NCBI GenBank assembly: GCA_029243165.1
Contig: JAQWSN010000005.1
Location: forward strand, 124,001 to 188,000
DNA from: Flavobacteriaceae bacterium
GTDB taxonomy: Bacteria > Bacteroidota > Bacteroidia > Flavobacteriales > Flavobacteriaceae
Length of the DNA stretch: 64,000 bases
Reading direction: 5' to 3'
In this document: piece after piece, positions 24,619 to 25,821 of the stretch
Layout of the letters: every line of letters begins with the position of its first letter
Numbering within the stretch: the stretch's first letter is position 1
The notes under the pieces: generated by a model
Database searches by the model: none
The model's input: the letters and a program-made list of their open reading frames with translations, nothing else
Told to the model about the DNA's origin: nothing
Program-made: the position numbers and the translations under genes

Positions 24619-24621
24619 CTG

Positions 24622-24696
24622 TGGGTGTTGAGGGATTCGAACCCCCGACTTCTACCCTGTCAAGGTAGCGCTCTAAACCAACTGAGCTAAACACCC
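24622..24696 (-). tRNA. tRNA-Val(GAC)
   Basis: Folds as a complete 75-base cloverleaf: acceptor GGGTGTT/AACACCC, D arm GCTC..GAGC, anticodon stem CTACC/GGTAG with loop TTGACAG giving anticodon GAC (valine, GUC/GUU codons), T loop TTCGAAT, and discriminator A. CCA is not encoded. Its own promoter and terminator flank it. Confidence 0.95.
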
Positions 24697-24727
24697 TATC
24701 ATTGGATTTTGTTGTATTAATAAAGGA

Positions 24728-24735
24728 CAAATATA
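24728..24735 (-). promoter_or_regulatory. Bacteroidota -7 box (TATATTTG) of tRNA-Val
   Basis: Perfect TAnnTTTG match on the minus strand, 31 bases upstream of the mature 5' end. Confidence 0.5.
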
Positions 24736-25004
24736 TTATTTTATCATGAAAAGGATCTTAAATTAAAGCGCACAACTGATCTTTCTAGGACAATAAATCA
24801 AAATGCCTTTTTTGAAATCCTAAAAATGAGACTCCACTTAAGCTCTTTATTTACTTTCTCAATAGTAAGTGTTGCTTTTTTGAGAATTTGAGTAAATACT
24901 TCTCTTCAAAATAAAAAAATGTGATTTTAAAGTTTAATTATTGAATATTCAATAAAAATGTAGATTAAGAGCGTTTCAGTGTAAAAAAAAGGCAGATTCA
25001 ACAG
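24736..25004. other. Gene-free stretch with an imperfect inverted repeat
   Basis: No credible reading frame or RNA gene is visible. It is very AT-rich. The only structure is an imperfect hairpin at 24849-24897, made of two seven-base arms on each side (ATTTACT + TTCTCAA against TTGAGAA + AGTAAAT) with a four-base bulge and a 17-base loop. It has no T run and I cannot assign it a role. Confidence 0.5.
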
Positions 25005-25012
25005 TATCTTTG
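25005..25012 (+). promoter_or_regulatory. Bacteroidota -7 box (TATCTTTG) of a candidate small RNA
   Basis: Perfect TAnnTTTG match in the gene-free region, 68 bases before a strong terminator. A TTTC lies about 27 bases further upstream, longer than the usual spacing. Confidence 0.5.
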
Positions 25013-25017
25013 AATAA

Positions 25018-25115
25018 TAATTAATGAAACGGCGTTATTTGTTCATTTAATTCAATTTTTGTTTTTAGTTTAAGTTAATATCCGTCTAGACTTTACATCT
25101 GGACGGATTTTTTTT
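25018..25115 (+). ncRNA. Candidate small RNA with an eight-codon reading frame
   Basis: A transcript of roughly 98 bases is predicted between the promoter box at 25005 and the terminator T run. The start is estimated, about six bases after the box. It contains ATG at 25024-25026 followed by seven codons and TAA at 25050 (MKRRYLFI), so it might instead be a leader peptide transcript, but no gene follows on this strand. It ends 14 bases from the convergent DUF2147 gene and could pair with the 3' end of that message if transcription runs on. Confidence 0.45.
25080..25115 (+). terminator. Strong intrinsic terminator with no upstream gene
   Basis: An 11-base stem (25080-25090 with 25098-25108, one G-U pair), loop CTTTACA, then seven further T through 25115. 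There is no coding gene upstream on the plus strand, which is the main evidence for a small RNA. Confidence 0.85.
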
Positions 25116-25129
25116 AAAATAGTATGGAT

Positions 25130-25549
25130 CTATTTACGCTTCCATATTTGGGTTCTCCCGAGGAGTGAAAAACCAAGAAAACCCCTAACTTTTAATGTAT
25201 TGGTGTCTTCAAAATCAACATAACAATCGTAAACCTTTCCTGATTTCGGATCTAGAATGGTTCCTTCTTCCCAAGTGTCATCTTCTAATTCTAAATCCTT
25301 AATGATGATCATGCCTTCGATAGGCTGATCTTTATTTGCTCCTTTACAATTTACACACTTTTTACCTTGATCTTCAGGCAAAAGTAATTTGGTGATTTTA
25401 CCGTAAAGTTTTCCGTCTTCTTTATAAATTAACACTTCTGATTTTTGTTTCCCAGTCTCATCATCTTGGGTTACCCAAGTACCTTCTATGGGATCTGTTT
25501 GAACAGAAAAAACAATGAGGGATATTAGTAATGTGTGAAATAATGTCAT
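25130..25549 (-). CDS. DUF2147 domain secreted protein
   Basis: A 139-residue exported protein with a signal peptide (residues 1-18) and a lipocalin-like DUF2147 domain: DPIEGTWVTQDDETGKQKSEV at the start, KKCVNCKGANKDQP in the middle, and GTILDPKSGKVYDC then LKVRGFLGFSLLGRTQIWKR at the end. Members are widespread in Bacteroidota and proteobacteria; the function is unknown. The two close cysteines (CVNC) could bind a metal or form a disulfide. Confidence 0.85.
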   Translation of the reverse strand: MTLFHTLLISLIVFSVQTDPIEGTWVTQDDETGKQKSEVLIYKEDGKLYGKITKLLLPEDQGKKCVNCKGANKDQPIEGMIIIKDLELEDDTWEEGTILDPKSGKVYDCYVDFEDTNTLKVRGFLGFSLLGRTQIWKRK

Positions 25550-25626
25550 ATGCTTTGATGTTAGTTTTTATAAAATTAAAAAATCTATAACTATATTCGT
25601 GAAAATGATATTGTAAATACACAGAT

Positions 25627-25821
25627 TTGAAAAAATTTAAATTTCTACTTCTTCTTATCCCTTTAGCCTTATTCATTTCATTCCTTGATAGCGAGATACT
25701 AAAGGGATTTTTAGCTTCAGGGGAAACACTTGACCATTACAGCTACATTGGAGTATTGGTCACAGCCGTTGTAATCATCATTTATTTTGTACTCCAATTT
25801 GATAAAAAGTCAAACACTTGA
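25627..25821 (+). CDS. Small membrane protein, hypothetical
   Basis: A 64-residue protein with two hydrophobic helices (about residues 5-20 and 40-58) separated by a polar loop. The start is TTG; there is no ATG in the frame after the preceding stop at 25606. The K-rich opening and membrane topology make it look real, but it is short and I recognise no family. It lies 35 bases before the flavin reductase gene. Confidence 0.5.
   Translation: MKKFKFLLLLIPLALFISFLDSEILKGFLASGETLDHYSYIGVLVTAVVIIIYFVLQFDKKSNT

Follow-up and report, generated by a model that had tools for sequence, protein, structure and literature searches.

A putative small RNA gene with an operator-like upstream site in one lineage of uncultivated Flavobacteriaceae

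Among the described small RNAs (sRNAs) closest to the one presented here, the 14 FopS sRNAs of Bacteroides thetaiotaomicron repress translation of SusC, an effect opposed by RbpB, and the available text of that report describes canonical promoters for the FopS genes and places the repression of SusC translation by FopS-10 at the start codon (PMC11697453). As far as the accessible parts of the respective publications describe them, the Bacteroides sRNA GibS pairs with translation initiation regions despite missing Shine-Dalgarno sequences (PMC7366714), and deletion of rfp18 in Flavobacterium psychrophilum lowers two metalloprotease mRNAs (PMC9723704). The locus considered here lies in a 64 kb window, the whole stretch of DNA that was analysed, from an uncultivated member of the Flavobacteriaceae, hereafter the host. 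Bacteroidota start translation without Shine-Dalgarno pairing, and to our knowledge few sRNAs have been characterised in this phylum outside Bacteroides and Flavobacterium; the uncultivated lineage that carries the locus is presumably marine, as record names such as TMED48 and MED818 suggest.

We read the locus as a non-coding sRNA gene of approximately 99 nt (25017–25115, + strand; RNA model R1 and alignment A1), presumably transcribed, equipped with its own upstream operator and specific to one lineage, and consider it very likely that this lineage-specific gene is real. Its start, at approximately 25017, was placed from the position of the promoter box, taken as −12 to −5 in line with the available text of PMC9723704. 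The anatomy of the gene, its conservation and the absence of a conserved frame can be read from the sequence itself. With a defined box, an operator-like site, a core and a terminator, the sRNA would represent a compact and well-bounded case in uncultivated Flavobacteriaceae and a tractable new sRNA family, of a kind of regulator that is already known.

Promoter, core and terminator

The original prediction had placed a TAnnTTTG box and a strong terminator around a stretch without a gene, and both elements are present: TATCTTTG at 25005–25012 (+ strand) is, judged by motif and conservation, a −7 box of the sigma-A type Bacteroidota promoter, and a hairpin at 25080–25108 is followed by a T-run up to 25115. 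By itself, at 97 matches to TAnnTTTG on the two strands of the window, the box is weak evidence. The pair of box and terminator, on whose conservation in relatives the prediction had partly been staked, is lifted above chance by conservation, the RNA model matching 10 of 38 genus genomes.

Further upstream, an operator-like palindrome, ATTATTGAATATTCAATAAAA (24937–24957), is centred approximately 70 nt before the inferred transcription start; neither this element nor the invariant core had been part of the original prediction. The start of the palindrome precedes the −7 box by 68 nt in all nine copies compared, and the eight bases read at this distance are TAnnTTTG in six copies and TATCTTTA in the remaining three (mean pairwise identity 0.882). 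Over the same number of copies the palindrome shows a mean pairwise identity of 0.918, compared with 0.56 for the preceding 40 nt and 0.53 for the following 47 nt; palindrome and core are conserved and the sequence separating palindrome from box is variable. As the copies were located by a palindrome pattern allowing one mismatch (with G022, cut by the contig end, excluded) and by an exact 13-mer inside the core, the identities of these two elements are favoured; a BLAST-based free alignment displays the same conserved blocks as the pattern-located copies. Searched through the ten carrier genomes with up to two mismatches, the palindrome pattern yielded nine sites at the locus and one elsewhere (G021:C24, two mismatches), and at zero or one mismatch this locus is its sole location in the carriers. 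No TTG near −33 was seen in the host. The fixed palindrome and the lack of a clear −33 element predict an activator-dependent promoter: the sRNA would be transcribed from a sigma-A type −7 box, and an activator would probably bind the palindrome at approximately −70.

Within the predicted transcript, the U-rich core TTTTTGTTTTTAGTTTAAGTTAA (25056–25078, + strand) is a candidate pairing region, with a mean pairwise identity of 0.961 and 19 of its 23 columns invariant over nine copies. The consensus fold, the host centroid fold and the fold of the host 5' part leave the core unpaired; it is partly paired with the 5' region in the host minimum-energy fold, and parts of it are paired in the G033 fold. 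The 5' region itself can be drawn as an AU-rich stem-loop (25019–25052, + strand, 25019–25030 pairing with 25041–25052), which contains the ATG of the short frame discussed below. Of its cells 91.8% are paired compared with 88.6% in shuffles (19 of 500 as high), and its covariation score is reached by 13 of 500 shuffles; pairs changed on both sides number 2 of 11, a value matched by 195 of 500 shuffles and exceeded by one slid version with 3. RNAalifold does not include the stem-loop in its consensus, and in three copies the 5' part showed no advantage in folding over shuffles (z 0.99, −0.41 and −0.30), so that we treat it as a possible, weakly indicated element.

The intrinsic terminator (25080–25115, + strand), an 11-pair hairpin with its T-run, is the single terminator-like site in 24700–25140, compared with a shuffle mean of 0.1, and the hairpin stretch has a folding energy of −15.1 kcal/mol (z −6.4). 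Its stem covaries: both-side changes occur in 6 of 10 consensus pairs (shuffle mean 2.1, none of 500 as high), and 95.6% of its cells are paired compared with 83.5% in shuffles (again none of 500 as high) and with at most 40% in slid versions. In the number of further pair types alone, the stem does not surpass the shuffles (374 of 500).

Occurrence among relatives

A DNA search through 60 genomes, comprising the host, 36 further genomes of the genus and 23 from other families, returned ten strong matches including the host, all within the genus (E <= 7.2e-19; next match 2.7e-5). The covariance search across relatives that had been proposed with the original prediction, conducted with model R1 built from nine copies (the host included; the tenth carrier, G002, supplied none), gave confident matches in the same ten carriers among 38 genus genomes (E <= 8.4e-9; next match E 0.034), a single one per carrier genome. 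Likewise, no second copy of the core within two mismatches was found in the host genome. As many of the genus genomes are incomplete, some absences of the sRNA may be gaps.

Among 245 other genomes sampled from the order, searched with stricter filters which lose weak matches, no confident match was obtained (best E 7.7e-4). Weak matches occur in 22 of these genomes (E 7.7e-4 to 0.09) and were rejected as homologues, being mostly hairpins and T-runs beside apparent ends of protein genes (L050–L076, central 200 bases). In two genomes of other genera (L056 in G062 and L065 in G068) a core-like sequence lies between an apparent stop codon and a terminator, which could hint at an origin of the sRNA from a 3' end.

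The exact 21-base core was encountered in 12 genome stretches and in one viral contig. Eight of the stretches match carriers (G002, G006, G020, G021, G022, G026, G032 and G035), the other four to Prevotella, Hellea and, twice, Mangrovimonas; the five non-carrier stretches, the viral one included, all border on protein frames or sit at their ends and were rejected as sRNA copies. No Rfam family corresponds to the sRNA: in the window only tRNA reaches the gathering score, and at E up to 10 three matches alone fall into 24700–25130, all far below gathering scores. Among the open-licence papers listed in literature searches, no report of this sRNA was found.

Predicted pairing partners

The reading that we favour, with moderate confidence, is that of a stand-alone non-coding sRNA of approximately 99 nt with an activator-dependent box, composed of the possible AU-rich 5' stem-loop, the U-rich core and the covarying terminator hairpin, whose core pairs in trans with mRNA starts. 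Most likely the core would pair where translation of a few mRNAs is initiated, in A-rich regions, and would thereby block ribosome loading. Since the core is partly paired in the host minimum-energy fold, our confidence in this reading was reduced very slightly; base-pairing is, in our view, the likeliest mode of action and moderately probable.

In the whole host genome, a near-complement of the core with up to three mismatches has one site besides the sRNA itself, the start of a SusC-type gene on the opposite strand; the reversed core used as control also finds one site, so that this count is not beyond chance. Duplexes were computed between the 5' part of each carrier's own sRNA and the region from −50 to +30 around the start of each gene in the stretches sampled. 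The strongest host duplex covers the start codon of the SusC-type gene, at −33.9 kcal/mol and rank 1 of 656 sampled genes, with the second best at −26.4 and the mean at approximately −15 kcal/mol; the ranks of SusC genes are partly post hoc, as the presence of SusC-type genes was part of the reason for choosing the stretches and the SusC focus began after the first match. None of 40 dinucleotide-shuffled sRNAs reached −33.9 kcal/mol on the same genes, the best of them giving −31.9 and the average best −28.1 (sd 2.0). The encoded protein carries the Pfam domains Plug and CarbopepD_reg_2 and matches TIGR04056 above cut-off. The gene heads a unit (L177:911-10739, G000:C27) in which it is followed by SusD, by an FG-GAP/ASPIC protein and by a PAP2 protein that matches, below cut-off, the N-terminal domain of vanadium chloroperoxidase.

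Among the matches listed, and with each carrier's own sRNA, related SusC genes of the other carriers do not retain the host pairing: those of G002 (82% identical) and G035 (79%) give −17.9 and −16.2 kcal/mol respectively, and those of G020, G022, G026 and G033 (47–54% identical) −15.8 to −18.4 kcal/mol. These comparisons derive from 66 SusC-type loci (all 8 own over cut-off, plus, from each of two further searches, 29 of the 30 matches listed with a locus), with gene starts taken as the first plausible ATG; L163 and L212, in which the gene's start is absent, were left out of the 66, and L139, L153 and L155, with no usable start, dropped out of them. Over all ten carriers near-complements of the core are not enriched, with 14 besides the sRNA compared with 52 for the reversed control.

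A different SusC-type gene ranks 1 of 267 in G026, and a gene resembling TonB-dependent transporters (TBDT-like) of rank 9 in the host has a reciprocal best match in G033 of rank 4 of 209; in G021 three sampled TBDT-like genes rank 84, 237 and 252 of 327. For the TBDT-like class, assigned by BLAST to SusC-type proteins and by length and thus open to doubtful members, Mann-Whitney tests gave p values of 0.54, 0.71 and 0.38, and 0.048 in a fourth genome with one gene; the SusC class as a whole was rejected as target, with no rank enrichment in three of the four. Averaged over 23 TBDT-like genes, z is −0.40, below all 60 shuffles (0.14, sd 0.20), a value driven by a few genes. Start-region duplex values correlate across reciprocal best matches (rho 0.30, 368 pairs), a correlation for which shared sequence alone may be sufficient. 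As targets, some SusC/TonB-dependent receptor mRNAs are weakly supported, and a role of receptor mRNAs as targets appears to us doubtful.

Outside the carriers, unrelated genes of Mangrovimonas, Prevotella and a viral contig (L289, L285 and L302) have an exact complement of the 21-base core immediately upstream of their ATG, as though the core were the mirror image of a strong start region of Bacteroidota; in sampled host genes no such trend was found relative to shuffles, and the start-region form of the core complement has four host sites, one of them the sRNA itself, compared with three for reversed controls. The Mangrovimonas gene just behind the core complement, which we take to be gldL, has orthologues in 17 of 20 genus genomes searched, including 8 of the 10 carriers. 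GldL was rejected as a target, with ordinary duplex energies of −11.3 to −17.6 kcal/mol in carriers with their own sRNA and −12.1 to −21.3 kcal/mol in non-carriers with the host sRNA. In G023 the same core near-complement occurs twice (L264 and L265), in both cases less than 70 bases from where a contig ends, and, the sequence being identical at both sites, is probably a repeat.

Alternative readings and comparison with known sRNAs

The U-rich core could instead be a protein-binding site, the sRNA titrating an RNA-binding protein as a sponge rather than pairing with mRNAs. A U-rich composition, the unpaired state in the consensus fold and the missing enrichment of core near-complements in carrier genomes are in line with such a role, although the one strong host duplex lies over a start codon; we regard the sponge as improbable, yet as the most probable of the alternatives.

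Less probable still is a function tied to the neighbouring gene. The sRNA lies between a tRNA-Val (GAC) gene (24621–24696, − strand; ARAGORN and Rfam tRNA) and a convergent gene for a DUF2147 protein (25130–25549, − strand; Pfam PF09917, E 4.5e-32), both encoded opposite to it, and could run antisense to the DUF2147 mRNA in its 3' untranslated region, or its hairpin could mainly be the DUF2147 terminator. The hairpin lies, on the other strand, 21 nt past the DUF2147 stop, and the DUF2147 gene adjoins the sRNA in 9 of the 10 carriers, the contig ending there in G002. However, the T-run is on the + strand, with none following the hairpin on the − strand, the −7 box and the palindrome approximately 70 to 145 nt away are also conserved, and all 21 non-carrier regions examined keep DUF2147 without the sRNA element. 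On the other side, ARAGORN recognised the tRNA-Val in G000, G021, G026, G032 and G035, and a partial tRNA-Val sequence is present in G002 and G033; within 700 nt ARAGORN found none in G006 or G020, and the contig of G022 is cut. The tRNA-Val stands beside DUF2147 without the element in four non-carriers (ARAGORN), and a fifth, G012, has a partial tRNA-like stretch. In a DUF2147 tree of 9 carriers and 21 others a modestly supported branch (78/52) sets the carriers apart from the rest, which is compatible with one gain or one loss of the sRNA.

Box, short frame and terminator follow one another in an attenuator-like arrangement, and the locus might be a relict leader whose downstream gene was lost, or box and terminator might co-occur by chance. 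The original prediction had already judged a leader-attenuator unlikely and had seen no gene following on this strand, and both statements hold: no + strand open reading frame of at least 60 amino acids starts in 25050–25627, the same-strand downstream gene that is the hallmark of a leader peptide or attenuator was thus not found at the locus, and downstream lies the opposite-strand DUF2147 gene wherever the contig extends that far. Core conservation and stem covariation speak against chance co-occurrence, and we consider relict and coincidence alike very unlikely. The eight-codon frame MKRRYLFI predicted at 25024–25050 (+ strand) does exist in the host, with in-frame ATG and TAA, and a micropeptide gene is nevertheless very unlikely and the least credible reading, as 3 of the 9 copies have the ATG, their peptides differ in sequence and length (MKRRYLFI, MKQHYLFN and MNQHY) and no conserved coding frame was found across the nine. 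Of the two roles originally offered, the micropeptide is strongly disfavoured and the regulatory RNA acting elsewhere is supported at the level of sequence, with box, core and terminator kept together in relatives.

The base-pairing sRNA that we favour invites comparison with the known systems as far as the available text of the cited reports portrays them. Like FopS and GibS, it would be a short Bacteroidota sRNA with a conserved seed or core (PMC11697453, PMC7366714), and, as for FopS, its best predicted host duplex lies over a SusC start codon, although related SusC genes of other carriers do not keep this pairing. FopS has 14 paralogues, whereas this sRNA is single copy; by description, the seed of FopS and GibS is at the 5' end, whereas the core is located mid-molecule here; and unlike FopS and GibS the sRNA is confined to one genus among the sampled genomes. 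With Rfp18 it shares conservation between flavobacterial species (PMC9723704); compared by description, Rfp18 is strongly structured, has three or more stem-loops and targets metalloproteases, whereas one strong hairpin and one possible stem-loop are seen here. It is conceivable, if rather speculative, that the lineage has independently evolved an sRNA, present in a single copy and served by an activator site of its own, whose invariant core silences a set of SusC and other TonB-dependent receptors, variable across the lineage, via their start codons, a counterpart of the Bacteroides FopS outside the gut; should the sRNA indeed control nutrient receptors, regulating glycan uptake after transcription would be a theme that extends more widely through the Bacteroidota. 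We assign the sRNA to none of the FopS, GibS and Rfp18 families; its mode of action is plausibly similar to theirs.
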